Assembly (NCBI GenBank): GCA_902384585.1
Contig: CABMCJ010000004.1
Coordinates: 1 to 64,000 of the forward strand
Length of the DNA stretch: 64,000 nucleotides
Reading direction: 5' to 3'
Origin: Candidatus Anstonella stagnisolia
Lineage (GTDB): Archaea; Micrarchaeota; Micrarchaeia; Anstonellales; Anstonellaceae
In this document: positions 12,001 to 61,033 of the stretch, piece after piece
Layout: every line of letters begins with the position of its first letter
How positions within the stretch are numbered: the first letter of the stretch is position 1
Notes under the pieces: model-generated
The model's input: the letters and a program-made list of their open reading frames with translations, nothing else
The model's database searches: none
What the model was told of the DNA's origin: nothing
Position numbers and translations under genes: made by a program

Positions 12001-15000
12001 CATCGCAGGGGCATGGCATCTACATCAATTCGAGTTCAACGGGCAATACGCTGGCAGACACCGCAGGGGCATCAGACGCAGGGGACGGGATAGCAATCAT
12101 GAGCAACAGCAACATAGGGGCAAACATAACCGGCACGTCCAATTCCCTTATGGGCATTCTCATAAACGCAGGGGATTACAACTCAATATCCAATTCCAAC
12201 GGGACATCGGTTTCATCCAACGGGATTTACCTAAACAACAGTGCGAACAGCAACAACCTTACAAACTCAATAGGCGGCTCAACATCAGGATACGGCATAA
12301 TACTAAACAGCACGTCCCTCAACAGCATACAGGGCTCAAGGGGCATCTCCGCCTCATCAGCCGGAATCTTCATCGACAGCACAACGAGCAGCACAATAAA
12401 CAGCTCAAACGGCACTTCAACCTCAAGCGTGGGCATTTACATATACCCCGGCTCAACAGGCGTCATCGTAAACAACTCAATCGGCACTTCCAATGCAAGC
12501 ATCGCGATTTACCTGTATGCCGGCGCCAACCGGCTTGAGAATTCCGCAGGCATATCGGTTGACGGGGCGGGAGTGCAAATCAGGGGCGACTCCAACACAT
12601 TGAACAGCGTAACCGCGTCATCAGCAAGCGACTATGGCATTTATCTCTACAGCGGGTCGGACTACAACAACCTGACAGGGGTGGTTGTATATTCAAATGC
12701 AACTTACGGCTTAGCCTTCGCAACAACAAAGCTCAACCGCATAGCCAACACAACCGCATCGTCCAACGTAAGTTACGGCCTTTACCTCACTGCCTCAAAC
12801 AACATGACGTTCATAAACGTAACCTGCATTTCCAACGTGACTTTTGGGGCTTACTTAACAACCAGCAATAACAACACGTTCTCAAACGGCTCGTTCTACT
12901 CAAGGAGCGGAAGCGGCTTGTACCTGGCAACCAACTCAAGCGCCAACATCTTTGAAAACAACACCATAAACGCATCGGCAAACGGCATCTACCTTATCGC
13001 CTCGTCCCATGAGAACCTGTTCGACCACAACTACGTCTACCGCGCCTCGACTTACGTGAACAACTCAAACGAAACGAATTCCTTCAACATAAGCGTTGCA
13101 GGGGTTGCGCAGGGCAACTATTATGACAACATCGCAGGCGTGAACATATTTGACGGCGACAACGACGGATACGGGGACTATGGTTCCGCATACCCGTACA
13201 ATGCTTCCACAAACGGCACTGACTGGAAGGGCATCGGGGCGGACTGGGGCCCGATAGGCGCGCGCTCAACTTCCCTTAGCGCATGCGCAGAGCTCAACAT
13301 CGCAGGCGCAACGTACAACGTGACTGCGGACATAACCGGCGCAACCGGCACGTGCTTCAACATAACCGCGCAAAACGTGACGCTTAACGGGCAGGGGCAT
13401 TCGGTAAAGGGCGTGAACGGCACGGGCGGGGTGCAGTACGGCGTGTATTCCAACCAGCCCAATTCCGTGCTGCTCAACCTCAACCTTTCCAACTTCGCGC
13501 ATGCAATCTACCTTGACCGCGCAAGCAGCGCAACCATACAGGGCAACAACGCAAGCTCCACCTATGCAACAGGCTACGGGATTTACCTGTCGCTGAGCAA
13601 CTCGTCCCTGATTTCCTCGAACATAATAAACGCAACCTCAACCGCGCTGCGCATGGAATCCCTTTCAAACAGCAACAATGCAACCGGCAACACAATTGTT
13701 TCAGGCTCGGGCAGCGCAGCCGCACTGCTTGGGACGACTTCCTCAAACAGGATTATCGGGAACACGATTGCAGCGCGCTCCAGCGGCTACGGGATTTGGG
13801 TGAACTCAAGCAACTCAAACACAATTGCAAACAACAGCGCAACATCCGTAACCGGCTACGGCATTGCGGTTGTTTCCTCATCAAGCACGCTGCTTCAGGG
13901 CAACAATGCAACTTCAGGCTCGTCAGGAATATACCTCTCGTCCGCAAGTTCGAGCACCCTCACCGGCAACAACTGCACTTCAACCTCCACTTCAAGCGCC
14001 GACGCGGGCATTTACCTTTTGGGCGGCTCATCCAACACTGTTGAAAACAACACTGCATACGGGCCCAGCGGGGCGTCGGGCGTGTATGCCAGCGGCGGCA
14101 GCCTCAACCGCTTTGCAGGCAACAATGCAACTGCGGCAGGCCTCACGGCCAGCTACGGCATCTATATTGCCGGAGGCAGCACCAACACAATATTGCGCAA
14201 CAACGCAACCGGCAGCGGCACTGCAAGCTATGGGATGTACCTCACGACAAGTACGGGCAACACGATTGCAAACAACACCGCGAATGGCGGTTCCTCTTCA
14301 ATAGTGCTTGACATTTCATCCACCTCCAACACCCTTACCAACAACACGGCAACTTCAACCGGCACAGGATATGGCATAGGGCTGCTCACAGGCTCCAATT
14401 CCAATACCCTCACGAACAACCGCGGCATTTCAACCGGTGCAGGCGCATCCAACGCAGGCATAGCCGTTTTGTCAAGCGCCAACAACGGGTTCACAAACAA
14501 CACCGCAAACTCAAGCTACGGCCCCGCAATCCGCGTTGAAAGCGGCGCGAATGGCAACACATTCACTAACAACAGCGCGTACGCAATGTCAAACTACTCA
14601 ATGTTCATATACTCAAGCACCGGGACCAACGCAGTCCGCAACTTCCTGTTCTCAAACAATTCAGGCGGCCTGTACCTTGGCGGAAGCTCAAGTGGCGGCA
14701 CGTTCACAAACAACACCATAAACGCCTCAACAAACGGCATCATGGCGGATGGCTCTGGCTCGGGCTCCAATTTCTTCTACTACAACTACATCTACCGCGC
14801 AACAACCTACGTGGACAACAGCGCGAACTCCAACCAGTTCAACACGAGCGTGGGCGGGGCTGCGCAGGGCAACTACTATGAGAACATAGCGAGCGTTGCA
14901 ATATACGACTCGGACGGCAACGGGTACGGCGATTCAGGCGCGGATTACCCATACGGCACAACAACCACGGGCAGCAAATGGAAGAACAGCGGCGCGGACT

Positions 15001-18000
15001 ACGGGCCAATCAACGCAACCAATACGACGCTCTCGGCATGCGCCGACCTGAATGCAACCGGGGCAACCTACACTTTGGCTGCGGACATAACCGGAATAAC
15101 AACGGACTGCTTCCGCATAAACGCCGCAAACGTAACCCTTGAGGGCAGCGGGCACCTCATAGCGGGCACGAACGGTTCCGTGCTCCCTCAGTACGGGGTA
15201 TACTCGACGCAGTTCAATTCCACGGTAAAAAACATCAAGGTGCAAAATTTCACGACTGACATATATTTCAACGGGGCTGCAAACGGCACAATAAGGAACA
15301 CCACTACGTTCCTTACAAGCAGCGATGACTTTGCGCATGGCATAATGCTTGTGGGCACCGAGAACACAACAATAGCAAACAACAATGCAACCTGCACGGT
15401 GAACGCAGGAATATTCCTTGCCGTTGGCAGCAGGTACAATTACCTTGCAAACAACAGCGGCACATCGGTTTCCTCAACCGGCATACAAATCCAGGGCTCA
15501 AGCAACAACACGCTCTCGAACTGCACTGGCACGTCCACAAGCGGCAACGGCATAGTGCTGTACTACGGCGCAAGCGGCACAGCGATAAGCAACAGCAAGG
15601 GCATTTCCTCATCGGGCTTTGGCATAGACATAAACGGCAGCTCAAACGTCATCATGACAAACAGCAACGGGACCTCGGACACGCAACACGGCATACACGT
15701 GGTCCCGTACCTTGCAGCCTCCCAGAGGTCAGACAACATCGCAATAATAAACAGCACCGGCACCTCCACAAACGTAAACGGCCTTAGCGGCATATACGTA
15801 TCCGGCCTGGGCCAGCTATCAGTCACGGGCATCAGCATAATAAACAGCACCGGCACTTCCCAATCCCAGAATGACGCCAACGGAATAAACCTGGGCGGCG
15901 CTGCGGACAGCAGCATCATTTCAAGCAGGGGCACCAACCTGGTGGAAGGCAACGGCATATTCCTGATAGACAGCACGCGCATAAACATCACGAACAGCTT
16001 TGGCAATTCAACCACGCACAGGGGCATAGACCTGTGGAACGCCACGTTCAGCACGCTGCAGGGCAACAACGGGACTTCGGGCAACGGCACCGGCATACTG
16101 GTTTACTCATGGTCCGGCAACAACACCCTTGCAAACAACCGCGGGACCTCAACTTCGTATTACGGAATCCACATCATGGATTATGGCAACAACCTGCTCG
16201 CGAACAATACCGCCACCTCCGGCTCCGGCATTGCACTTTACATTGACGGTTCCGAGAACAACACGCTCATAAACAACACAGCAATTTCGGATACCGGCTA
16301 CGGGGCAATGCTCTACCTGTCAAATGGCAACAGCCTTGCTTCAAGCAGCATTCGTTCAAACGGCCTCATATCGCTGCTGCTTGACCATTCAAACTCCAAC
16401 GCTGTCGCAAACAACAGCGCCTCTGTCACTTACGGGGCGGCATACCAGATATTCCCAGGGGCTGCAATAGAGCTGAACTACTCGCACAACAATAACTTCA
16501 CCAACAACAACGCAACATCGGATTCCGACTCCGCGGTCATGATAAGCTATTCCGAGAACAACACAATCGCGGACAGCTATGCTGCCACAAGCGGGACATA
16601 TGACTATGCATTCCTGGCTTCCTATTCAAACCGCACAAGCATCCTGAGGAACACAATCGTTGCAATAAACCCTGCATGGATAGGGCTTTCAGTCCAATCC
16701 TCCGACTTTGCCTCAATAATGAACAACACGGTAATCTCGGCAGTCCATTCCGACATAATCGTCTCAGGGTTCAGCCTCAACACAACGCTGAGCGGCAACA
16801 CAAACAGCTCCATAAACCTCTACCAGGACATTGGCGCAACCGTATCCAACAACACCTGCACCGCGCTGGACTGCGGGCTCATACTTGCGGAAACGTCCCA
16901 GAGCACTGTTGCGGACAACTACATAAGCAGGGCAATACCCGGCAACGAAACCTGCGAGCTGGGCTATGACTTCTGCGTAGCATGCGGAAGCGACGCAGTC
17001 TGCATCACATCCGTGAATGCGGGCGCAAACAACAACGTATTCACAAACAACACAATATACGGCCAGCCGGGCAACGGGCTTTACGTTTACCAGTCGGACA
17101 ACAACCAATTCACGAACAACAATTTCAGCTCGCTTATCTTCTATGGCGTTGAGCTCCTTGGCTCCAACAACACCATAATCGGCGGCAGCGCATATTCGCA
17201 AAACCTCACCCCGCTATACGTAGGGGCGGACATCCCAACTTCCCCAGGCGCCAACAACACGTTCCGCAACATGAGCATAACAACTGCGAATTCGTCAACC
17301 TATGCAGTCGTATTTGAGCCGGCAACTTCCTACAACCTCTTCTACTGGAACAACATTTCTGCAACAAAATGGGTGAACAACTCAAACAGCACGAACCAGT
17401 TCAACACGAGCGTGGGCGGCTATCCGCAGGGCAACTTCTACCCCAATGCTTCCTCCTACAACATCGTGGACACCAACCTTGACGGGTTTGCGGACTCCGG
17501 TGCCCAGAACCCGTTTGGCAACGCAACCATAGGCTCGGGCCTGTGGATGGGCAATGGCGCGGACTACGGGCCATATGCCCCTGACAACATCGGATGCCAG
17601 AACCTCTCAGATGCAGGCAGGGTTTACAACCTGAACGTTGACGCAGTGTCCACAAGCGGCACGTGCTTCACTGCAACCGCCGCAAACATCACACTTGACT
17701 GCCAGGGCCACTCAATAACGGGCGTGAACCTCTCAAGCACGTACGGCTTCACGACCAACCAAATCAACACGACCGTGAAGAATTGCATAATATCCAACTT
17801 CTCGCACGCAATTTACTGGAACACTGCGGACAACGGGTCAATACTTAACAACATTGCAAACACCTCGCGCGCAAGCAGCTACGGCATATACATATACAGC
17901 GGCGCAAACTTCAACCTGATTGCAAACAACACTGCGGATTCGCGCCTGAGCTATGGCATTTACGTGTCCTCTTCGCACAACAACACGCTGGTTAACAACA

Positions 18001-19871
18001 CCGCATATACGCCGGCAGGCGGCGCTGCGCCAATAGGGCTGTCCTCCTCGAATTCAAACCGCGTGGCCAACAACAATGCAACCACGAACACCTCGTCTGC
18101 CACATACGGGGCAATCTACCTCACGTCTGCGAGCTACAACACCATTGCAAACAACACTGCGACTTCCAACAGTGGCGGCATAGTGGTTAGCAGCTCAACT
18201 TACAACAACCTGACAAACAACACCGCAATAAGCGTTGGCAATACTGCCATAGCTAGCGGGTTCTACATCTCTTCCTCATCAACCGGCAATGCCCTGACAA
18301 ATAACTTTGGCACAACGCTCCCAAGCAGCACCTCAAAAGCCGGCATCTACATAACAGGCTCCAACAACATGGTGCTTGCAAACAACACGGGCATATCAAA
18401 CCGCAGCTACGGGATTTACCTCTCCTCAACCGGCACCACCATAACAGGCGGAAATGCAAGCTCGAACGCAACTTACGGCCTTTACCTGGCTTCAGCAAGC
18501 AGCAATGACATCATAAATGTGAACGCAACTTCGCGCGACAGCAACCCGGTATACCTGACTTCCTCAAGCAACAATGAGTTCTACAACATGACCGTTGACG
18601 CAACCACTGCAAGCCAGGCAGGCATATACCTGACCGGCTCCTCAAACAACTACTTCCGCAACGTTACAAATTCCTACTCATACAACAGCACGTCCGCGAA
18701 GTTCTATTCCTCTTCGGCGCAAAACGCAAGCTCCAACATGGACCTGGGCTGGTGGCCGCACTTTGATTCAACCGGCGCCGATGCGACCACGCAGGCAAAC
18801 ACGGCATGGTTCAACGGCACCGGAGGGGGCAGGGACAACAACTGGAACACAGCCGCGCTCAACACGTACTGGTACCGCGGAAACGACAGGCAGCTCAACA
18901 TATATTTTGTGAGCCCGACTCCTGCTGACAAGGCAGCCACCACCAACACGACGCTCCCGGCAAACATCACGATAAACGAAAGCGGGCTGGACACGTTCAC
19001 GTGGAACTGGAATTCAACCAACTTCACGTTCTACGACGGCACGCTCGTGTACATGGCGAACTTTGACAATGTGGCTGCGTTTGGCGAGGGGTCGGTATCT
19101 TCCGTGGCGGCTGATGTTTCCCAGGGTGCGAACACGGGCACGTGCAAGAACATGGGGACGTCCTGCAACTGGACAAGCGGGCAATACGGCTCCGCAATCC
19201 ACTTTGACGGCTCGGACGACTTTGTAAACGTCACGTACAGCGCATCCTTTGAGCCGTCAACCGCCGTGACGTTTGGAGGATGGCTGAAGGTAACCGGCGA
19301 CGGCACCGATTCAGACGGGGATTACGTGCTCTCAAAAGGAAGGGAAAGCTCAACCTTGTCCTACGGGCTCAAATACGTGCCTGCAACCGACAAGTATAGC
19401 TGCATGGTATCCCTGAACACCAACGGGGCCTACACGGTGAATTCCACATCAACGTTCCCGCCGCCTTCCTCAAGCTTCACGCACGTCATGTGCGTTTATG
19501 ACACAAGCGCATTGAGCCTGAAAATATACGTGAACGGCGTGAACGAAGCCACAACTTCAACTGGAACCGGAGGCAGCATAAACTACTCAATAATGGGCGA
19601 CCGCGACCTTCACATCGGCAACGGGCAGACCACCACTCCGATGCGCCAGTTCCAGGGAGACATAGACGAACCCCGCATATACAGCAGGGCGCTTAGCGCA
19701 ACCGAAGTGGCGCAGCAGTACTACTCGGACCTTTACAAGCCCTCGCAAACGCAATGGCAGTTCTACACGGTGCAGCCAATGGCAAAGACATCCTATTATT
19801 ATTCAGGATATGCAAAGGAATTCACAGGCATTGCGAATTCAACTGGCGAAAGGCAGATAACCAGGAACTAA
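3..19871 (+). CDS. Giant secreted/surface right-handed parallel beta-helix (NosD/PbH1-like) protein with about 5 LamG/concanavalin-like domains and DxDxDGYGD Ca-binding-like linkers; 5'-truncated by the window
   Basis: Listed ORF starts at 156, but the same frame is open to the window edge and encodes the same repeat (..APTIQNCVLSDWENAIKFNAATNGTISS..). Hundreds of N/S/T-rich rungs (GIYL..SNNNTITNS). LamG-like blocks (DWNRSLVGWYRFNG...FDGA...GSIDDVAIFSRNLS) near 3223-3879, 4117-4731, 9085-9687, 10390-11011 and 19045-19730. Confidence 0.93.
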   Translation, partial: DGIDSPLSIGIYASKTAPTIQNCVLSDWENAIKFNAATNGTISSTTSSSNLVYSIYLTGTSGANISSVTLASDSVAGIYLDSSSNSNSITSPTISTLGSGIYVNSGSGNTIDCLGANLIGSNASSTYGIYSTQTNTTVQNCNISNFQHGIYFTGANGTILNNNASTTYTGGVGIFVGGSRHTVKSNTAYSYSDAAIRVDTSNYNVLANNNGTSDTTNNAYGLYIVSGASHNVVANSTFTSNGGSNSRAVFINTASSTNNSLINVTARGTSGQGIMASANGNYILNSTGISVSEAGIWLSGSSNNTITNSAGASNSNVGIELTSGSNNNIITNSNGSSNASANSYGYYLSASSNNQIINPAASSNFTHAIYLLSNANNNTFNLTRGILTNKSAVYINSGANNTIDCLGANLIGSNATTTYGVYSSQSNTTVRNCNISNFGYGISFVAGADNGTIQNTNASSTNSRSIYIISNGNSITNSIANSTNDIGLYLAGASNNTVTNSIGASVSSIGIYVQAAAKNNVLINCTGISSSQAAIAIYDNANNTQLINSTGTTASAKGIYVYLSSNVSISNSAGRSTANGYGIDLYTVTSSQVTNSNAASNSSYGMLLTTSSTNNQIINSTAFSNASHAIYITSASSNNALNLTNGITTNLSAVYIDGGASNSIDCQGANLIGSNATTTYGVYSTQSNTTIKNCNISNFATGIYFNGAANGTIDNVNASTTYDYDVSSQGNGIYLYNNATFNSITNSNANSLRGVGIRLSTDADYNTIANNTVTSTYSYGILLVTNSNQNNITNSRGTTTSGIGGIAIGINSNYNTLTNSTGVSSSGYGIYVTTSANNSFYNSTFSSTSSLGINLSSSPNNYFENVSNSILSGAGGSFKFYSDSAQNTSSKLNIGWWPLLTSNGATATVQANTAFYNGSSGGRNADGSSNTNLHYWYNNQPLLGIVLNAPPNEIFTSNRVPAFNFTATSGVNSTFTCTLALNNTPYGTNATTTTAVATLITANASLADGKYFWYVNCTDPYGTMQSEIRNITIDATPPAIAFVSPTDANASYVNRSFSYVNVSVSDTNNVSAFIDWNRSLVGWYRFNGANDFNDYSTYSNIGINSGSAYNDSGAFGSSRTFDGASNYVTVPYAASLAPTGAITVSAWFSTKDKTVAQKIVSKTEGGAYALGLNLGVPYCNANSICLLINVGGTYYNASYATSNINNNQWYHMVGTYDGETARLYVNGAEVASNTNPSGAISYASSNPLCIGSEPDGTVCSTGQYFNGSIDDVAIFSRNLSTQEILALYNANANSLYNNFTGLAGTYNYIAYSQDAAGNTNSTENRTLIVDTVAPSISFVPPTPNDNSSVSSLDGTVYVNVSSSDNYANHSVVTDWNRTLIGWYRFNDANDFTDYSSYGANGINAGSAYNASGMFGGARQFDGAGSLVNVTGAPNPTDALTIEAWVYPKKSEIKEIFLRGTGSTANYEFHQSGLNLVVYLNDRATSATSASAMALNAWNHIVFTYDKSLPSANIKMYINGVQDATTKNYTASLATTTYPFAIGAYPDLRYPFNGTIDDVQVYKRALSAQEISASYNAATFKYYNNFTGLTAGDYTVKSYAQDFAGNVNSTETRTFSVKLQCGTLGAANTVYTLTSNVSIAGATCFTVTAKNVTLDCNGYSISGDNTSSTSGVYSTYANTTVKNCRISDFNFAVQYATGADFSRIDNTIGSSTGSAFYMNTPGNLVISNSTASALTTATAAGVNFAGGSNSVAINTTGIGVAAGTYGMKIITAGSNNSFINCNATSTSSYGMLIQRPGNFVINTTAYSGGSLAIYLTTATANNNVLNLTRGISTTNSGVYIDGGANNSMDCQGANIIGNSALSSYGVYSDELNTTIKNCNISNFQHGIYFLGAASGAILNTNASTTQTGASYGIYLYSNANSNQIINSSGTSSAYSGIMIYTSSSNIVNGSRGTSLGSVGAGIHLYSLANGNQIINSSGASASSSKGILVDTSSSNQIINSTATSSTGDAIYLTGSSSNNITNVTATTASGTTGCAIHLVSSSNGNRITSASATNTVGAGNVAGGIYVESSSSNIINATSASGGAGNGIYLLSSSSNNQVLNSNATGAGVGLYVSTGSNNNNITNSRGTTGGGGYAAYIYDSNNTRFENNTMVATSTGYGMRLWTAWFNTLVGNNITSNSNYALWLSASSNNVSNSSMASTSNYAIHIQGSNNNIINATATSGTFTSIYLTSGSNNTITNSTVSGTSGITATNLSSLNLFYYNNVSATTYVNNSNETNQFNTSVAGVAQGNYYTNILIVNIYDSDGDGYGDMGSAYPYNASSSGSSWLGLGADYGPIAARSTALSACANLSIAGATYTLRANITGAAGTCFNITAANITLNGQGNSISGINNSNTYGVHSNQFNSTISSIRISSFPNAVRLNGATYATIADSILSTFYGGVIRVTGASNNTIARNNTISLFSTVADAGGIYNDGGANMNVDCQGASITGINGSSTYGIYSNQFNTTITNCRISSFQHGVYFTGATNGSISNTNATSFIASGSGIALTNANDNIVTNTITNSTLYPGTWLSGTSTRNTIRDSLAQSLANQPGLEIDSNSNTVLNATGKAGGASYGGIGIYGGSSNSITNSTGINTVAGGIGISITAGTANSNTIIGSYGNATDGSGIYISSGSHNFVDCQGKTLIGTNATNTYGVYTNQINTTVKNCIISNFSIGVFFSGATFGTINNVTASTSRARASDSNGDGIFLTNSANDNIIINSSATATGGTSIGILLDGNNLRNQIINTTGYGASGNGIILYSNSAPGNQFNNITNSTGISGSVSAISLSWYSTNNRVSGSNGTSTSSNGISLVIAANNSVSNSSFASTSGYGMTLSSSFGNNITGSNITSASNIGIVLTASNSSRFTNNTISASTAAINISSASSLNLFYYNNITASVWVNSTNASNYFNTSVGGHAQGNIYNGIWAYDLRDADADNWADLGTQYPLSSSTVPARWIGLGADYGPWTNRTNTAPVVVSAYAGVETNGTNEVALAAYWRLDEAQSDPIAVDSASGAWPGTPTNVNFTAQGRIGRAASFNSTGAHISIGTFNVSSTQFAAVSGWFKANSVALPSQVIFDNRQFYVALQQSKINYRAYGGGTWGSKNSSATIKADTWYHFVVSYDGYYNSHELALYLNGALDSDMQFPDTISRADGATGQIGTDYLLTSPFGGMIDDVRAFNRSFSADDALRVYNNTAYRLYTLAAAPNATDADGDALTFNYTWYKNGLVFGSTNSSSFNVSPSSISIGDNWGACIIAYDGSSYSSPACSPNLTIVSSAPAIAFQNTYVNCTIGHCFNVTAGATSQLALQGLQLNNTANGACTNAYNTSRGTTFNATYNCSGPINGVANISIGFNGFDGWAWSTYSTNAFPNQPPTQGTPILNSTDASNSTVGNLTAYNVSFADVDNDSLYAIYDMRRNGVSLAMANLPFDRNVSSTTAGAVPDYSTYASNGTLGGGTAAKAPVWNASGKVGGAYTFDGVNDDISAGANANVLDKFTLAAWVYQVSTSGPKYQTIINHGGQNANGEYWLYLTDGKISIEVGNGTGRKFNEALTSAPLGLNTWHYVIVTFDQGTVTTYINGTQSGSASLGIASSLGGSQTLYIGAYQGSSNVFNGSIDGVLVFNRTLSAAQVAALYDSQYSKLASQELAPGENWSVSVAATDQYAEVANLSNNVTITSSLSACGVLNVPNTAFNLTGSVSINGSTCFNVTAQNITLDCTGYSVSGDNTTSTYGIYSNQFNTAIKNCNISNFATGIYFSGATNGTIQNTNASSTNAAGGLSGKGLRFDSGANNSQIINVTATADWGIIIAAGSNNNAFSGTIASSSTASGRGISIQGQNTSIDCQGKSMAGANATGSYGIYSDSFNTTIKNCQISSFQHGIYLQGSNSSTIQNTNASTTALAGYGIYLSSSNNSAITNSMGNSTLDSGICLLSSPGISLTYSIGSSNQLHGILITGTSVSDSLSNSTGISSQGHGIYINSSSTGNTLADTAGASDAGDGIAIMSNSNIGANITGTSNSLMGILINAGDYNSISNSNGTSVSSNGIYLNNSANSNNLTNSIGGSTSGYGIILNSTSLNSIQGSRGISASSAGIFIDSTTSSTINSSNGTSTSSVGIYIYPGSTGVIVNNSIGTSNASIAIYLYAGANRLENSAGISVDGAGVQIRGDSNTLNSVTASSASDYGIYLYSGSDYNNLTGVVVYSNATYGLAFATTKLNRIANTTASSNVSYGLYLTASNNMTFINVTCISNVTFGAYLTTSNNNTFSNGSFYSRSGSGLYLATNSSANIFENNTINASANGIYLIASSHENLFDHNYVYRASTYVNNSNETNSFNISVAGVAQGNYYDNIAGVNIFDGDNDGYGDYGSAYPYNASTNGTDWKGIGADWGPIGARSTSLSACAELNIAGATYNVTADITGATGTCFNITAQNVTLNGQGHSVKGVNGTGGVQYGVYSNQPNSVLLNLNLSNFAHAIYLDRASSATIQGNNASSTYATGYGIYLSLSNSSLISSNIINATSTALRMESLSNSNNATGNTIVSGSGSAAALLGTTSSNRIIGNTIAARSSGYGIWVNSSNSNTIANNSATSVTGYGIAVVSSSSTLLQGNNATSGSSGIYLSSASSSTLTGNNCTSTSTSSADAGIYLLGGSSNTVENNTAYGPSGASGVYASGGSLNRFAGNNATAAGLTASYGIYIAGGSTNTILRNNATGSGTASYGMYLTTSTGNTIANNTANGGSSSIVLDISSTSNTLTNNTATSTGTGYGIGLLTGSNSNTLTNNRGISTGAGASNAGIAVLSSANNGFTNNTANSSYGPAIRVESGANGNTFTNNSAYAMSNYSMFIYSSTGTNAVRNFLFSNNSGGLYLGGSSSGGTFTNNTINASTNGIMADGSGSGSNFFYYNYIYRATTYVDNSANSNQFNTSVGGAAQGNYYENIASVAIYDSDGNGYGDSGADYPYGTTTTGSKWKNSGADYGPINATNTTLSACADLNATGATYTLAADITGITTDCFRINAANVTLEGSGHLIAGTNGSVLPQYGVYSTQFNSTVKNIKVQNFTTDIYFNGAANGTIRNTTTFLTSSDDFAHGIMLVGTENTTIANNNATCTVNAGIFLAVGSRYNYLANNSGTSVSSTGIQIQGSSNNTLSNCTGTSTSGNGIVLYYGASGTAISNSKGISSSGFGIDINGSSNVIMTNSNGTSDTQHGIHVVPYLAASQRSDNIAIINSTGTSTNVNGLSGIYVSGLGQLSVTGISIINSTGTSQSQNDANGINLGGAADSSIISSRGTNLVEGNGIFLIDSTRINITNSFGNSTTHRGIDLWNATFSTLQGNNGTSGNGTGILVYSWSGNNTLANNRGTSTSYYGIHIMDYGNNLLANNTATSGSGIALYIDGSENNTLINNTAISDTGYGAMLYLSNGNSLASSSIRSNGLISLLLDHSNSNAVANNSASVTYGAAYQIFPGAAIELNYSHNNNFTNNNATSDSDSAVMISYSENNTIADSYAATSGTYDYAFLASYSNRTSILRNTIVAINPAWIGLSVQSSDFASIMNNTVISAVHSDIIVSGFSLNTTLSGNTNSSINLYQDIGATVSNNTCTALDCGLILAETSQSTVADNYISRAIPGNETCELGYDFCVACGSDAVCITSVNAGANNNVFTNNTIYGQPGNGLYVYQSDNNQFTNNNFSSLIFYGVELLGSNNTIIGGSAYSQNLTPLYVGADIPTSPGANNTFRNMSITTANSSTYAVVFEPATSYNLFYWNNISATKWVNNSNSTNQFNTSVGGYPQGNFYPNASSYNIVDTNLDGFADSGAQNPFGNATIGSGLWMGNGADYGPYAPDNIGCQNLSDAGRVYNLNVDAVSTSGTCFTATAANITLDCQGHSITGVNLSSTYGFTTNQINTTVKNCIISNFSHAIYWNTADNGSILNNIANTSRASSYGIYIYSGANFNLIANNTADSRLSYGIYVSSSHNNTLVNNTAYTPAGGAAPIGLSSSNSNRVANNNATTNTSSATYGAIYLTSASYNTIANNTATSNSGGIVVSSSTYNNLTNNTAISVGNTAIASGFYISSSSTGNALTNNFGTTLPSSTSKAGIYITGSNNMVLANNTGISNRSYGIYLSSTGTTITGGNASSNATYGLYLASASSNDIINVNATSRDSNPVYLTSSSNNEFYNMTVDATTASQAGIYLTGSSNNYFRNVTNSYSYNSTSAKFYSSSAQNASSNMDLGWWPHFDSTGADATTQANTAWFNGTGGGRDNNWNTAALNTYWYRGNDRQLNIYFVSPTPADKAATTNTTLPANITINESGLDTFTWNWNSTNFTFYDGTLVYMANFDNVAAFGEGSVSSVAADVSQGANTGTCKNMGTSCNWTSGQYGSAIHFDGSDDFVNVTYSASFEPSTAVTFGGWLKVTGDGTDSDGDYVLSKGRESSTLSYGLKYVPATDKYSCMVSLNTNGAYTVNSTSTFPPPSSSFTHVMCVYDTSALSLKIYVNGVNEATTSTGTGGSINYSIMGDRDLHIGNGQTTTPMRQFQGDIDEPRIYSRALSATEVAQQYYSDLYKPSQTQWQFYTVQPMAKTSYYYSGYAKEFTGIANSTGERQITRN

Positions 19872-39061: not shown

Positions 39062-40144
39062 ATGCACCCGGTATTAATACTAGATTCCACGCTGCGCGAG
39101 GGCGAGCAGGCGCCCAACGTGCGCTTTTCGCACGAGCAGGCAGTAAAAATCGCATCCGAGCTTGACTCTTTTGGCGTGGATTTCATAGAGGTTTCCCCAA
39201 TCGTGAGCGAGCGCTCAATGCAGATTACAAAAAGCATAATTGAAATGGGGCTAAAGTCAAATCCCATACTCCATGGGCGCGCAACAAAGGGCGACATAGA
39301 CAAGCTCCTCTCCTTTTCCCCAAACTGGGTTGCGCTTTACCTTTCCACTTCTGACGTGCATTTGGAGCATAAATTGCACATGTCACGCGAAATCGCAAAG
39401 CAGCGCGCAGTTGAAACAATTGAATATGCAAAATCGCACGGCTTGAAATTGCGCTTCACGTGCGAGGATGCATCAAGAACAGATGCAGCATACCTCGCAG
39501 AAATGGTGAAAGTTGCGACAGATGCAGGAGCGGACCGCATAAGCATCACTGACACAGTGGGCGCCCTCACGCCTTCACTTATGTTTTCCCTTGTGCAAGG
39601 CGTGCACACTGCAGTCCCGAAAGCAAACCTGGATGTGCACTGCCACAATGATTTGGGCCTTGCGCTTGCAAACTCGCTCGCAGGAGTGGAGGCGGGCGCA
39701 ACCTGCATACACACATGCATAAACGGTGCTGGCGAACGCGCGGGAATCCCAAAACTCGCAGAAGTTGCGCTTGCGCTCCAAGTGCTTTACGAGCAAAGAG
39801 GCGAGCTGAAAATAGAAAAGTTGCCTGAACTTTCCAAAATGTTCTCAAGCTTTACAGGCTTGCACAGCGATGTGTTTTCCCCGGTCGTCGGCGAGAACGT
39901 GTTTAGGCACAAGGGTGGCACGCACTTGGGCGCAGTCCTGCGCTCCGAAGGAAAGGCATACGAGGCATTTTCACCCGAATCAGTCGGAAGAAAGCGCCGC
40001 CTTGTGATAGGCGAATACTCAGGGAAAAACGTGCTTCGCTATCTATCAGGAGAATTGCATTTGGGTCTCACTGAAGAGCAGATAGAGCGCACGATTTCAC
40101 GCTTAAAAGAAAAGGAAGGCGACATCTTTGAATTTGAACTATGA
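39062..40144 (+). CDS. lysS: Homocitrate synthase (LeuA/NifV family)
   Basis: LDSTLREGEQAPNVRF, HGRATKGDIDKLL, DVHCHNDLGLALANSLAGVEAGA; in the LysW cluster. Confidence 0.85.
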   Translation: MHPVLILDSTLREGEQAPNVRFSHEQAVKIASELDSFGVDFIEVSPIVSERSMQITKSIIEMGLKSNPILHGRATKGDIDKLLSFSPNWVALYLSTSDVHLEHKLHMSREIAKQRAVETIEYAKSHGLKLRFTCEDASRTDAAYLAEMVKVATDAGADRISITDTVGALTPSLMFSLVQGVHTAVPKANLDVHCHNDLGLALANSLAGVEAGATCIHTCINGAGERAGIPKLAEVALALQVLYEQRGELKIEKLPELSKMFSSFTGLHSDVFSPVVGENVFRHKGGTHLGAVLRSEGKAYEAFSPESVGRKRRLVIGEYSGKNVLRYLSGELHLGLTEEQIERTISRLKEKEGDIFEFEL

Positions 40145-40203
40145 GCGCAATCGCGCGCAGGGAAAAAATGAGACATGTCTGAATTTGAGTTGTAGGTGAT
40201 AAT

Positions 40204-45209: not shown

Positions 45210-46274
45210 ATGACTCAAAAAATCCGTGCATCCATAATCGGCGCTTCCGGCTACACCGGAGGGGACATCATGAGAATCCTTCTCATGCACCCCAACGTGG
45301 AGCTCAAGAGCCTTACTTCGGAAAGGTTTGCAGGAATCCCGGTTACAAAACTGAATCCAAATTTGCGCAGCTTTACGCAACTCGCCTTCACTTCGGTAAA
45401 GGAAATAAGGCCCGAAGAGAACGACGTGATTTTCCTGTGCGTTCCGCATGAAAAGGCGCAAGAGTATGTTGCAAACTACTGGAAAAACTATCCGCACCTG
45501 AAAATAATTGACCTCTCTGCAGACTTCCGCATACATGACCAGAAGACTTACGAACATTACTACTGCCCGCACAAGCACCCAGAGCTTCTCAAAGAGGCAG
45601 TGTACGGATTGCCCGAAGTGCACCGCGAGCAAATAAAGAAAGCAAGGCTCGTTGCATGTCCCGGCTGTTTGCCTACGAGCACTATCCTGCCTCTTTACCC
45701 AGTTGTAAAAGCAGGGCTCATAGACCTCTCCCACCTCGTAGTGGATAGCAAAATAGGCTCTGCAGCAGCAGGAGCGAGTTTTGACATCTCAACTCATCAT
45801 CCGGAAAGGCAAGGAGTTGTGCGCGCATACAAGCCAAGCGGGCACCGCCACATTGCGGAAATGGAGCAGGAGCTAACCGAGGCGGCAGGCGTGCCTGTAA
45901 AAGTTTCCTTCTCCCCTCACGGCGTTGAAATGGTGCGCGGAATTTTCACAACTGTGCATGCATTCCTTAACAAGCCCGTAAAGGACGTTGACATGTGGAA
46001 GCTCTACCGCGCAGCATACGGAACTTCCCCATTCATCCGAATCGTAAAGGACAAGGAAACACTTTACCGCTATCCAGAACCCAAAATGGTTGCAGGCACG
46101 AACTTTGCGGACATAGGCTGGGAAATAGACGAGCACGCAAATCGCATAATACTAATGAGCTCAATAGACAACCTCATCAAGGGCAGCGGGGGTCAGGCAA
46201 CGCAGTGCATGAACCTCATGTTCGGGCTGGATGAGAAGACGGGGATGTGGCAGCCCGGCTTGCACCCATACTAG
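45210..46274 (+). CDS. lysY: LysW-aminoadipyl phosphate reductase (ArgC family)
   Basis: IIGASGYTGGDIMRILLMHPNVE, ACPGCLPTSTILPLYPVV, GSGGQATQCMNLMFGLDEKTG. Confidence 0.94.
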   Translation: MTQKIRASIIGASGYTGGDIMRILLMHPNVELKSLTSERFAGIPVTKLNPNLRSFTQLAFTSVKEIRPEENDVIFLCVPHEKAQEYVANYWKNYPHLKIIDLSADFRIHDQKTYEHYYCPHKHPELLKEAVYGLPEVHREQIKKARLVACPGCLPTSTILPLYPVVKAGLIDLSHLVVDSKIGSAAAGASFDISTHHPERQGVVRAYKPSGHRHIAEMEQELTEAAGVPVKVSFSPHGVEMVRGIFTTVHAFLNKPVKDVDMWKLYRAAYGTSPFIRIVKDKETLYRYPEPKMVAGTNFADIGWEIDEHANRIILMSSIDNLIKGSGGQATQCMNLMFGLDEKTGMWQPGLHPY

Positions 46275-46316
46275 CGAAAAGCCGGGCATGCATCCTTACT
46301 AGAATCTGGTGTTGTT

Positions 46317-47141
46317 ATGCAAGAAAAACCAATCCTCATAATCAAAGTAGGCGGCAGCATTGCAAGCACGCCGGACTTAATCGCGCAAGACCTCGCATCC
46401 TTGCACTCCCGATACTCAATAGTAGTTGTGCACGGATGCAGCGCGCAAATGAACGAGTTGTACGATAAGTTTGGGATTAAGCCTGCTTTCATCACTTCAC
46501 CAACAGGCTTCAAGTCTCGCTACACAAACGCGGACACAATACGCGTGTACAACCTTGCAATCCACAACGCAAGCACGAGCATCATACTCGCGCTACAAAA
46601 AGTCGGCGTGAATGCAGTAGGGCTTTCGGGCTTTGACGGCAAAGCAGTAGTCGGAAAGCAAAAAATAGTCACTTCTGTTGATGAAACCGGCAAGCAAAAG
46701 CTCATCCGCGACGATTTCACCGGCAAAATAGAGAAAATAAATGGAGAGTTGCTGAAAACACTGCTCAATGCGGGCTACACACCCGTAGTCGGCGCGCTTG
46801 CAATGGGCGAGCCTGCGCAGCCGCTCAACATAGATGGGGACCGCTTGGCAGCAGCAGTTGGCGCGGAATTGCACGCGAACATCATGATCTCACTCACGGA
46901 TGTTGACGGATATTACAGGAATTTCCCCAACGACCTTGTAGCAACGCTAAATCGCGAGGAGCTCAAAACCGCAATAGAAAATGCGGGCGGCGGAAAGGCA
47001 AGCGGGGGCATGAAGAAAAAGCTCTTTGCATGCGCAGAAGCCCTTGATGGCGGCGTGCATGAGGTAATAATTGGAAACGGGACAGTTCCAAGCCCCATAA
47101 GCAGGTTGCTTGAAGGAAAAGGGACGCACTGCAAGAAATAG
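46317..47141 (+). CDS. lysZ: LysW-aminoadipate kinase (ArgB family)
   Basis: IIKVGGSIAS, NIDGDRLAAAVGAELHA, GGGKASGGMKKKLFACAEALDGGVHEVIIGNG. Confidence 0.93.
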   Translation: MQEKPILIIKVGGSIASTPDLIAQDLASLHSRYSIVVVHGCSAQMNELYDKFGIKPAFITSPTGFKSRYTNADTIRVYNLAIHNASTSIILALQKVGVNAVGLSGFDGKAVVGKQKIVTSVDETGKQKLIRDDFTGKIEKINGELLKTLLNAGYTPVVGALAMGEPAQPLNIDGDRLAAAVGAELHANIMISLTDVDGYYRNFPNDLVATLNREELKTAIENAGGGKASGGMKKKLFACAEALDGGVHEVIIGNGTVPSPISRLLEGKGTHCKK

Positions 47142-47215: not shown

Positions 47216-48328
47216 ATGCATATCCGCAATCCTAACCCAGGCCAACTCAAGGTTCTTGCAGTGGTGGGCACAAGGCCGAACATAATAAAGCACATGGTGG
47301 TCCAGCGGGCATTTGCCTCCAGGCACCCGGAGGTCGAGCTGAAACTTGTGCATACCGGCCAGCACTCAGAGCCAAACATGTCAGGCATTTTTTTCCAAGA
47401 GTTCAAGCTTCCGCCTCCTGATTACCAATTTTTAGTTTCAAATCCCTCCCCAATACGCCACATAGGGGAAATAATGTGGCAGATGGAAAGGGTGCTTGCG
47501 ATTGAAAAGCCGGATACAACTATAGTCTATGGCGACGTGAATTCCACTCCGGCTGCAGCATGGGCGTCTGCAAGGAAAGGCATTCCAATAACATACATTG
47601 AAGGGGGCATCCGAAATCCCGACGGCCTCCAGAACCATGAGGAAATAAACCGCAGGTTGACAAGCTCCATTTCCCATCTTGTTTTTCCCCCAACAGAAGA
47701 AACGCGCCTGAATCTCTTGAAGGAGAATTTCCCGCCGGAGCGCGTCTTCTTATACGGAGACACGGTATGCGATGCCCTGCATTATGCGCTGGGGGAATTG
47801 CAAATAACCGCAACAGAAGGAGATTATGTCTTTGCGGCTTTTCATCGCCACGAGGATATGGGCGCACCAGGGCAGTTGAGAGGCATTCTCGAAGCCCTTA
47901 TAGAATCCGGCAAGAGAATAAAGTTCCTCATGCATCCAAGCACTGAAAAAAAGCTTAAGGGAGAGGGGCTTTATCAAATGCTTGAGGAAAACTGCAATTT
48001 TGAGCTCATACCGCCGCAAGGATTCTTTGATTTTGTCCGCATTCTGGCTGGCGCAGGCAAGGTCCTTACTGACGGGGGAGGGACAAGGCGCCAGGCATAC
48101 ATGCTGGGGAAGCCAACTATAATATTGGACGGCTCAATCTACTTGCCGGAAATAGTCAAAACCGGCTGGGGCATTGTAACGGGCACGGCAAAGGAGAAAA
48201 TCCTGGCTGCAATTAAAACATTCGACCCGCGCAAAAAGCCAAGGCCCGCACTCTTCGGTGATGGGCATGCAGCAGAAAAAATTGTTGATAAGATAGTGGA
48301 AATCTATAACCTGCGCCGGAATCCATAA
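47216..48328 (+). CDS. UDP-N-acetylglucosamine 2-epimerase (WecB-like)
   Basis: VVGTRPNIIKHMVV, HTGQHSEPNMSGIFF, VYGDVNSTPAAAWASARKGIPITYIEGGIR. Confidence 0.93.
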   Translation: MHIRNPNPGQLKVLAVVGTRPNIIKHMVVQRAFASRHPEVELKLVHTGQHSEPNMSGIFFQEFKLPPPDYQFLVSNPSPIRHIGEIMWQMERVLAIEKPDTTIVYGDVNSTPAAAWASARKGIPITYIEGGIRNPDGLQNHEEINRRLTSSISHLVFPPTEETRLNLLKENFPPERVFLYGDTVCDALHYALGELQITATEGDYVFAAFHRHEDMGAPGQLRGILEALIESGKRIKFLMHPSTEKKLKGEGLYQMLEENCNFELIPPQGFFDFVRILAGAGKVLTDGGGTRRQAYMLGKPTIILDGSIYLPEIVKTGWGIVTGTAKEKILAAIKTFDPRKKPRPALFGDGHAAEKIVDKIVEIYNLRRNP

Positions 48329-48427: not shown

Positions 48428-49606
48428 ATGGCAACATCAGAAGAAATAATTGCAAGGGAAAAGAAAGCAGAACTTTCCTGCTACGGCAAGCGCCCATTTG
48501 TAGCCGAAAGAGGGGAAGGCACATACCTCTACGATAAGGAAGGAAAGCGCTACATTGACTGCGTGATGGGGCACGGCGTAGGGAACTTGGGTCACTGCCA
48601 CCCAAAAGTAGTGAAGGCGATACAGGAGCAGGCGCAGAAATTGATTTCCTGCCCAGAAGTTTTCCCACTTGAAATACGCGCGCAGTTTGAGGAGCTTTTG
48701 CTCTCAATAGCTCCGGGCGAAAAAATGCAAAAAGGAAAAGTATTTTTGTGCAACTCCGGCACGGAGGCAGTGGAAGCTGCAATAAAGCTCTCGCGCTCTT
48801 TCACAAAAAAGAAAGGTTTCATAGTTGCAATGAATGCATTCCACGGAAGGAGCACTGGCGCTGTTTCGCTCACGTTCAATCCAAAATACCGCGAGCCTTT
48901 TGAACCACTTATCGGTCCGATAAAACGGGTTAGGTACGGGGATGCGGCACTGATAGAGGCTGCTATTGATGATAGCATAGCCGCAGTAGTTCTGGAACCT
49001 GTGCAGGGAGAGGGCGGAGTGCGGCCTGCACCAGATGGATACCTTCAAGCAGTAAGAGAGGTATGCGACAAGCGCGGCATCCTCCTAATAATTGATGAAA
49101 TACAAACGGGTTTTGGCAGAACGGGAAAAATGTTTGCGTGCGAGCACTGGAACGTGCAGCCGGACATACTTTGCGTTGCAAAAAGCATTGCAGGCGGGCT
49201 TCCGTGCGGCGCAATGCTTGCGCGGGAAGGCTTGGATTTTGCCCCAATGCAGCACGGAAGCACGTTCGGGGGCAACCCAATGGTGTGCGCAGCAGGCATA
49301 GCCGCAATAAGCGCAATAAAAGAGGAAAAAATGTGCGAAAACGCAACCGAAGTAGGAAACTACCTCCTCTCACGCATGAAGGAATTTGAAACCTCAAAGA
49401 AACTCGTGCGCGAAGTGCGCGGAAAAGGCTTGATGCTCGCAATTGAGCTTAAGCAGCCAGGCAAAGAATATCTTGTGAAACTAATTGGCAATGGAGTGCT
49501 TGCACTTCCTGCAGGGGACATGGTGCTAAGGTTCCTTCCGCCTCTCACCCTTACAAGAGATCAGGCAGATGAGATAATAACTGCTCTTGACAAAACACTC
49601 GAATGA
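48428..49606 (+). CDS. lysJ: LysW-aminoadipate semialdehyde/acetylornithine aminotransferase
   Basis: FLCNSGTEAVEAAIKLSR, VLEPVQGEGGVRPAPDGYLQAVREVCDKRGILLIIDEIQTGFGRTGKMFACEHW. Confidence 0.93.
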   Translation: MATSEEIIAREKKAELSCYGKRPFVAERGEGTYLYDKEGKRYIDCVMGHGVGNLGHCHPKVVKAIQEQAQKLISCPEVFPLEIRAQFEELLLSIAPGEKMQKGKVFLCNSGTEAVEAAIKLSRSFTKKKGFIVAMNAFHGRSTGAVSLTFNPKYREPFEPLIGPIKRVRYGDAALIEAAIDDSIAAVVLEPVQGEGGVRPAPDGYLQAVREVCDKRGILLIIDEIQTGFGRTGKMFACEHWNVQPDILCVAKSIAGGLPCGAMLAREGLDFAPMQHGSTFGGNPMVCAAGIAAISAIKEEKMCENATEVGNYLLSRMKEFETSKKLVREVRGKGLMLAIELKQPGKEYLVKLIGNGVLALPAGDMVLRFLPPLTLTRDQADEIITALDKTLE

Positions 49607-49674
49607 GCGCCCGCAAAAACGCGGGCAGATGAGATAATAAATGCACCGGATGAAACTCTTGAATAGTTGATAGC

Positions 49675-60200: not shown

Positions 60201-60447
60201 GAAAATAGATTCGGGAACGCCCAACATCTCAACTGCGGTGAACGAAGGAAAAGTGCAGCTCATAATAAACACGCCCAAGCGCGGCAAGGTTTCCAACACG
60301 GACGGCTTTAGGATTCGCCGCCTCTCAATAGAGAAAAACATCCCGTGCATTACGAACTTTGAGGCTGCGGAGGCGCTTGCAAGCGCAATAGAGCGCGCGC
60401 AAAAGAAAAAAATATCAGTAAGCCGCATAGAGGACAATTGGAATTAA
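57202..60447 (+). CDS. carB: Carbamoyl-phosphate synthase large subunit
   Basis: Duplicated ATP-grasp halves (VIGSGPIVIGQSAEFDYSGSQA / VIGSGPIRIGQGIEFDYCCCHA); overlaps carA. Confidence 0.98.
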   Translation: MPEVKKTTPKIKKALVIGSGPIVIGQSAEFDYSGSQACQSLREEGVKVVLVNSNPATIQTDNDIADIVYIEPLLSEYLEKKIEKEKPDGIIATMGGQTGLNLCMELHKKGVLQKHNVQVLGTPISAIELAEDRGHFAHLMEKLGEPILSSIAAKTKEEAYEFAKKHSFPLILRPAYTLGGTGGGIAYNKDDFEDLLELGFTLSPTHQILIEESVLGWAEFEYELMRDSHDNCISICNMENVDPMGIHTGESVVVAPSQTLSDREHQTLRDAAFRIIRAIGIVGGCNIQFAVDQKTGKYVIVEVNPRLSRSSALASKATGYPIARVAAKIALGKQLYEIKNAVTKTTPASFEPALDYVVVKIPRWPFDKMSEGNRTLGTQMKSTGEAMAIGRTFEEAFNKAMRSREVRPAKITEEDLVRHIKEPTDLRFDSILYALRIGWSGEKIHSLTNINPWFVQKLQNIIEMEKEISATQPANAQIAKTATMQIATPLPSNELLLSAKRMGFSDSQIASLCKKTEGEIRTLRKKSSILPTYKIVDTCAGEFDAKTPYYYSTYEKEDEKEQFAGKKQKVIVIGSGPIRIGQGIEFDYCCCHASFALRAAGFESIMINNNPETISTDFDTSDRLYFEPLTFEDVLNIVEREKPIGVIVQFGGQTSINLAGKLTAAGVKILGTQLDGIDIAEDRERFRELLHKLKIAQPENGTATNLQEALAAANKITYPIVVRPSYVIAGRGMQIVYDDEQLTKYIAEAVEVSESRPVLIDKYIEKAIECEIDGICDGKRLFIGGIMEHIERAGVHSGDASCVTPPVRLKKSVQQEIVRISNEIALALSTIGAINIQYVVRDDIIYVLEANPRASRTMPYLSKAIGIPLAKKATLAMLGKSLDELGLKEQKFPAKYAVKSVVFPFLKLRGVDFILGPEMKSTGESMGADKEFSLAFYKALLGANQKIPLKGGVVFSLKDGDKERVAPVAALFSKMGFEVYATPGTAKVIQEAGISVHLLQKIDSGTPNISTAVNEGKVQLIINTPKRGKVSNTDGFRIRRLSIEKNIPCITNFEAAEALASAIERAQKKKISVSRIEDNWN

Positions 60448-60466
60448 GCAGCAATGGTGAGCTTGC

Positions 60467-61033
60467 TTGAAGATAACCGGAACTGAATTGCGCTGCATGT
60501 TTGCGGGCTTTGCATTAGCATCTTTCCTGTTTCTCGCATTTATTTTCGCATACCTCTACCTTTTTCCATCGCCCTCACTCGCATCTTCGGGCTGCTTTCT
60601 GCAAAAAGCGGTTTTTTCGCCCAATTCCGAGGATGACGTGGTTTCGTTTTTCAATTCCGCAGGCAAAACAATAGACGTTGAGATGTACGTTTTCTCAAAC
60701 CAGAACATCGCACGTTCCCTTGCGAATGCGGCAAAGAGGGGCGTGCGCGTGCGCCTTATACTTGAGGGAAGGATAGAGGGCGTGCAGGAAAATGCAAATA
60801 CCTTCGACTATCTTGTTTCCTCGGGCGCATATGCAAAATGGGCAAGTCTCTCCTACAAGCTCACGCACAGCAAGCTTGCAATAGTGGACGGAAGGAAAGT
60901 ACTTGTGGGCAGCATAAACTTCAGCAATGCTGCGGTAACGAAAAACCGCGAAGCAGCAGCCATGCTCTACTGCAATGAAAACAACGAGTATGTGCGCACA
61001 TTTGAGGAAGACTGGCAAAAAGCAGGCGGCTAA
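60467..61033 (+). CDS. Phospholipase D-like/nuclease protein with N-terminal membrane anchor
   Basis: HSKLAIVDGRKVLVGSINFSNAAVTKNREAA (HKD motif); TTG start or ATG 60497. Confidence 0.85.
   Translation: MKITGTELRCMFAGFALASFLFLAFIFAYLYLFPSPSLASSGCFLQKAVFSPNSEDDVVSFFNSAGKTIDVEMYVFSNQNIARSLANAAKRGVRVRLILEGRIEGVQENANTFDYLVSSGAYAKWASLSYKLTHSKLAIVDGRKVLVGSINFSNAAVTKNREAAAMLYCNENNEYVRTFEEDWQKAGG

Follow-up and report, generated by a model that had tools for sequence, protein, structure and literature searches.

Xenologous gene displacement in situ and mosaic operons are usually described for whole genes. In homology-facilitated illegitimate recombination, known from bacterial transformation experiments, one end is joined by homology and the other without it; we know of no demonstration of this process in DPANN archaea. 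In the fungal mitochondrial mORF elements, foreign C-terminus insertions occur with displacement of the native C-terminus downstream (in atp6, atp9, cox2, and nad3 of Glomus and in atp6 of Allomyces; PMC3630166). At the locus considered here, a gene is followed, just after its stop codon, by a second and diverged copy of its own last codons (hereafter, a tail echo). A search of the literature found no account of such echoes in prokaryotes, although this is weak evidence that none exist.

The locus lies in a stretch of 64,000 nt of Candidatus Anstonella stagnisolia (contig CABMCJ010000004.1, positions 1 to 64,000), called the window below; all features given with window coordinates are on the forward (+) strand. 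The source genome is designated G000, and the nearest sampled genome, of the same genus, G001.

The lysY-lysZ junction

The window contains the gene run leuD-like, icd-like, lysW, lysX, lysY, lysZ, epimerase, lysJ, and lysK. The models TIGR01206, TIGR02144, TIGR01850, and NF010659, with those of argD/LysJ and LysK, identify it as a LysW-dependent lysine biosynthesis operon (lysWXYZJK). Far upstream (156–19871), an ORF of 6571 codons matches Beta_helix, NosD, and laminin-G-like lectin domains in its first half, and would thus encode a giant repetitive surface-type protein.

The lysY gene (45210–46274), coding for a [LysW]-aminoadipate phosphate reductase of the ArgC type (TIGR01850 argC, E = 8e-119), ends with the letters CAGCCCGGCTTGCACCCATACTAG (QPGLHPY-stop). 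Its last seven codons and the stop TAG form the first tail, T1 (46251–46274). After a spacer of 4 nt (CGAA, 46275–46278) comes the echo, T2 (46279–46302, AAGCCGGGCATGCATCCTTACTAG), which reads KPGMHPY-stop, is offset from T1 by 28 nt, and is out of frame with lysY. Between CCCGGCTTGCACCCATACTAG (46254–46274) and CCGGGCATGCATCCTTACTAG (46282–46302), 17 of 21 nt are identical, and the differences between PGLHPY-stop and PGMHPY-stop comprise three synonymous changes and one L>M; with one more codon (CAG at 46251, AAG at 46279), the identity becomes 19/24. Beyond their stops, T1 and T2 show no similarity to each other. A gap of 14 nt (46303–46316), with a weak Shine–Dalgarno-like TGGTG, separates the echo stop from the ATG of lysZ at 46317. 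The tail echo pointed out at 46252–46302 in the initial annotation is thus exact in its coordinates, letters, and offsets, and its score (47 in the scan described below) places the direct echo far above chance.

In another genome (G017, L079 6805–7849), the reading of lysY is broken across several frames, and one of the breaks carries a short tandem repeat (GGGAAGCGGCGGGCAGG); this lysY is either a pseudogene or an assembly error.

Tail echoes in the genome and in relatives

Stop-anchored copies of the C-terminus of each gene were sought up to 120 nt downstream, with a null obtained by swapping the downstream regions among genes. The G000 sample comprised 417 genes and 464 kb, about a third of the genome, and covered roughly half of the largest contig. 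At a score of at least 30, eight of the 417 genes carry a tail echo (0.03–0.07 expected) and, at a score of at least 40, five do (0.00–0.03 expected per genome sample). The lysY echo is thus not unique; this part of the genome has at least eight stop-anchored tail echoes. Besides lysY, the genes are lysJ, a homocitrate-synthase-like gene, carB, a tRNA-synthetase-1b gene, a HerA-type gene (herA), a zinc alcohol dehydrogenase, and an ABC ATPase, the first three of which are, with lysY, in the window. In lysJ, the tail QADEIITALDKTLE-stop (49562–49606) is echoed as RADEIINAPDETLE-stop (49622–49666; 34/45 nt), with the lysK ATG 8 nt on. In the homocitrate-synthase-like gene (PF00682/PF22617), DIFEFEL-stop (40121–40144) is echoed as DMSEFEL-stop (40172–40195; 17/24 nt), 8 nt before the next ATG. 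In carB (CPSase domains), VSRIEDNWN-stop (60418–60447) is followed by VSLLEDNRN-stop (60457–60486; 18/30 nt), with an ATG 10 nt on. The herA gene, elsewhere in G000 (L108, 14988–15130), has three to four copies of its own EAFL tail stacked behind it.

Other types of echo are not enriched in G000. Head echoes show no excess over expectation, and out-of-frame echoes within genes are nearly absent (1 in 366 kb of coding sequence). Long-range echoes (120–4000 nt, as with an inserted element between the tails) are not above expectation either, and the strong matches look like tandem paralogues. A readthrough or frameshift product was rejected, since the frames of the echoes are mixed.

In the congener G001, one of 819 genes has a tail echo (0.2 expected), and none was found in E. 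coli K-12 (0/187), G029 (0/116), or G050 (0/133). Single cases occur in G013 (leuC) and G014 (icd). In G034 (L160, L204, and L205), 4 of 135 genes have tail duplications, mostly tandem-like with similarity running past the stop. In G018 (L071, about 6016–6105), it is the head of lysZ that is echoed: MLVLKIGGSIP lies between lysY and the real lysZ start (MLVLKIGGSM), with 24/30 nt identical; this head echo was not seen in the related G013. The initial annotation had held that absence of an echo from relatives would count against its reading. At the lysY locus itself that absence is observed, since G001 passes from lysY through TAA and a short gap to lysZ without an echo; for the class of feature it does not hold, with echoes in seven other G000 genes and in scattered genes of other Micrarchaeota.

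The echoes in G000 share several characters. In seven of the eight cases, the homology stops at the stop codon, and the identity after it is at chance level (2–7/20); at herA, it reaches 11/20. The spacers between tails are of 4–64 nt. In 7/8 cases, the last echo stop is 4–14 nt before the next ATG on the same strand (5, 8, 8, 8, 10, and 14 nt in six cases and about 4 nt after the last herA tail); the echo thus occupies a normal operon junction. Measured up to the residue at which the alignment of the next gene begins, the gap is 57 nt after lysY and 68 nt after lysJ, compared with 9 and 24 nt in G001. The resident tail (T1) and the spacer would then look like the inserted part. Within lysY, lysJ, or the homocitrate-synthase-like gene, no imported 3′ tract is visible in comparison with G001, which counts against an allele replacement.

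The divergence of the echoes was compared with that expected of a decaying copy; the detection score uses amino-acid similarity, for which the simulations were corrected, and the cases number only eight. The stop codon differs between the tails in 5/8 pairs, in two of those by two substitutions. Simulated decaying self-copies keep the same stop in 88%, and the observed stop pattern was reached in 0 of 20,000 draws, with the caveat that the stop of the resident gene itself changes from species to species. The excess of third-position changes (0.46 vs. 0.37, p = 0.05) is suggestive only. Four of the genes (lysY, lysJ, the homocitrate-synthase-like gene, and herA) have a usable orthologue in G001. 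Over these, the echoes have 93 of 126 identities to the G001 tails, whereas self-copies mutated by the same number of changes, and conditioned on detection, have 78.9 ± 3.4 and reached 93 in 0 of 4000 simulations. The three comparisons T1–T2, T1–G001, and T2–G001 are nearly equidistant (94, 99, and 93 of 126), and the identities of T2 and T1 to the G001 tail are, respectively, 20 and 19 of 24 in lysY, 30 and 32 of 45 in lysJ, 18 and 20 of 24 in the homocitrate-synthase-like gene, and 25 and 28 of 33 in herA. Since the identity to G001 equals that to the resident tail and is above the self-copy simulation, the echoes carry the information of a third allele at about the congener distance. An old unconstrained copy would be hardly recognizable, because four-fold sites are just 52.5% identical between G000 and G001. 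The behavior of the tails is that of a third allele at congener distance rather than that of a resident tail copied and then decayed. The second lysY allele implied in the initial annotation is, in this respect, the best-supported reading: the sequence of the echo has changed as that of a true gene end would, and its distance from lysY is about that of the lysY of the congener.

Origin of the echoes

The lysY echo probably represents the 3′ end of another, homologous lysY allele that was left stranded as the scar of an incomplete allele replacement. We infer the following course of events. Homologous (homeologous) recombination in the gene body would have joined the resident gene to the 3′ end of a related donor. 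At the downstream end, the joining would have been independent of homology, since most intergenic DNA cannot be aligned between these species. If that joint fell inside the old resident tail, this tail with its stop would therefore have stayed put, as would the ribosome-binding site and the start belonging to the next gene; the donor 3′ end and a few nucleotides (4–64) would stand in front of the stranded tail. Selection would remove any joint that disrupts the gene itself or the start of the following one, which would explain that the scars are mostly at gene tails. The reverse direction, with the echo arriving together with a replaced downstream segment, leaves the same footprint at lysY and is attractive there because the lysZ type differs from that of the congener.

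More tentatively, tail-swapping may be recurrent in the chromosomes of Micrarchaeota. One-sided recombination with related lineages would strand old tails before the next ribosome-binding site, sometimes repeatedly (herA), and the echoes would be a legible trace of earlier gene exchange. Should they be recombination scars, the joints of gene exchange in uncultivated archaea would be marked at base resolution. Such scars would keep a fragment of the lost allele, and a single genome would be enough to read the direction, rate, and donors of allele replacement.

A third allele at congener distance is also what a metagenome-assembly chimera would give, if the contigs of two co-occurring congeneric strains had been joined at a variable intergenic gap, with the tail from strain B placed after the intact gene of strain A. 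The genome seems to have been assembled from a metagenome, the named relatives are metagenome-assembled genomes (MAGs), and local errors and rare chimeras are documented for these (PMC7111523). Chimeric joining should, however, make both tail and head echoes, whereas the eight tail echoes of G000 have no counterpart in an excess of head echoes. Further, there are no broken genes with internal echoes, the sequence is without N, the two tails share no long exact word on which a k-mer assembler could join, and similar features are present in other assemblies (G013, G014, and G018). We consider a chimera unlikely; that strain chimeras could mimic such echoes is nonetheless a warning for the quality control of MAGs.

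Tandem or short segmental duplication of the tail of a gene, followed by neutral decay, is a quite unlikely source of the lysY echo. Some echoes in the phylum do arise in this way, as seen from the clear tandem tail duplications of G034, in which the identity after the stop is high (13–16/20) in three of four cases; in addition, the lysY echo covers 24 nt of the 28-nt period, and some similarity persists after the stop at herA. In a tandem duplication, however, the similarity should run on beyond the stop to the end of the repeat unit, and in G000 the homology mostly ends at the stop. The differences in stop codons and a similarity to the G001 tails far above that of a decaying self-copy argue against it as well.

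The downstream gene lysZ (46317–47141) is of a type unlike that of the congener. Its product is 42% identical to that of G001 (72% to that of G031 and 62% to that of G029), whereas the flanking genes are at 80–89% amino-acid identity to G001 (leuD 84, icd 86, lysW 85, lysX 86, lysY 89, lysJ 85, and lysK 80%). In the LysY tree, G000 joins G001 (100/96). In the LysZ tree, G000 joins G029 (98/95), in a group that includes G031 and G050, and G001 is found with G005/G006 (89/88); the AU test rejects a G000 + G001 clade for LysZ (p = 0.001). The tree of lysZ thus conflicts with its neighbors in an unchanged neighborhood, so that at least one of the two congeners has exchanged its lysZ, and genes at this junction are replaced between relatives. 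As to which of the two was displaced, the topology and the lower GC3 of lysZ in G001 would lean toward G001; the junction scar and the insertion of the epimerase after lysZ would lean toward G000. Codon usage was rejected as a means of dating the import: it is normal for lysZ in G000, and lysZ in G001 differs mildly from its neighbors. The UDP-GlcNAc 2-epimerase-like gene (47216–48328; Pfam PF02350), between lysZ and lysJ, has no equivalent beside lysZ in any of the lys loci of relatives examined, and its best match in the sampled relatives is at 45% (G029, on another contig). In G031, two lysW-lysX pairs occur in one locus (L064 3713–6152), with LysX 74% and 59% identical to that of the window; that locus is probably a mosaic lysine operon.

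It is very unlikely that the lysY echo was imported with a foreign lysZ, by in situ displacement with a donor segment beginning inside the donor lysY tail. The low identity of lysZ, the AU test, and the lysZ head echo at the same junction in G018 would fit such an import. On the other hand, LysZ of G000 groups with G029 roughly as the flanking genes predict, and G001, with its lower lysZ GC3, may be the displaced one; nor is the codon usage of lysZ in G000 abnormal. Other echoes need no displaced downstream gene, as with lysK following the lysJ echo.

The initial annotation also reported a 9-bp stem across the lysY stop, with a possible role in RNA processing. GCCCGGCTT (46253–46261) and AAGCCGGGC (46279–46287) are indeed perfect reverse complements, with a loop of 17 nt, but the stem is not above chance: seven perfect 9-bp inverted repeats with loops of 3–20 nt are found in the window, vs. 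6.2 ± 2.7 in Markov-1 resamples. The echo itself accounts for part of the stem, the Pro-Gly codons CCCGGC/CCGGGC being almost self-complementary. The RNA fold of 46240–46325 is weak (z = −1.48; 16 of 200 shuffled sequences equaled or exceeded its stability), no terminator-like site was found, and the lysY-lysZ junction of G001 has no such stem. An intrinsic terminator or processing hairpin should be stabler than expected and conserved, and this stem is neither; given the chance-level repeat and the weak fold, a hairpin or terminator role is not supported, and we treat the inverted repeat as incidental. A functional role in coupling lysY termination to lysZ initiation, by way of a stop codon, a short peptide, or a hairpin, is hardly credible despite the short distance of most echo stops to the next start and the exactness of the repeat over the lysY stop, since the frames relative to the gene are mixed and the congener lacks an echo at the junctions compared.

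Comparison with known systems

Replication-slippage tandem duplication of gene ends resembles the echoes in giving a local direct repeat across the stop. Slippage would, however, copy the bases past the stop and decay without keeping the stop, and most of the G000 cases are unlike that. Homology-facilitated illegitimate recombination has the one-homologous-end joining that the proposed allele replacement needs; no donor sequence ending in ...KPGMHPY-stop was found here. With xenologous gene displacement in situ, the locus shares a lysZ whose phylogeny differs from that of its neighbors at the same position, but the usual description does not include stranded tails left as scars at the junction.

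The closest described architecture is that of the fungal mORF elements, in which the gene keeps one tail and a diverged second copy of the tail lies downstream (PMC3630166). In those elements, the fused tail is foreign and the downstream tail is the displaced native one (PMC3630166). The G000 echoes likewise present two diverged tails of one gene with the downstream one detached. In the fungal case, however, a homing-endonuclease ORF between the tails drives the event, whereas in G000 the tails are separated by the 4–64 nt spacers, without an ORF, and the echoes are found in an archaeal chromosome, where many unrelated genes are affected.
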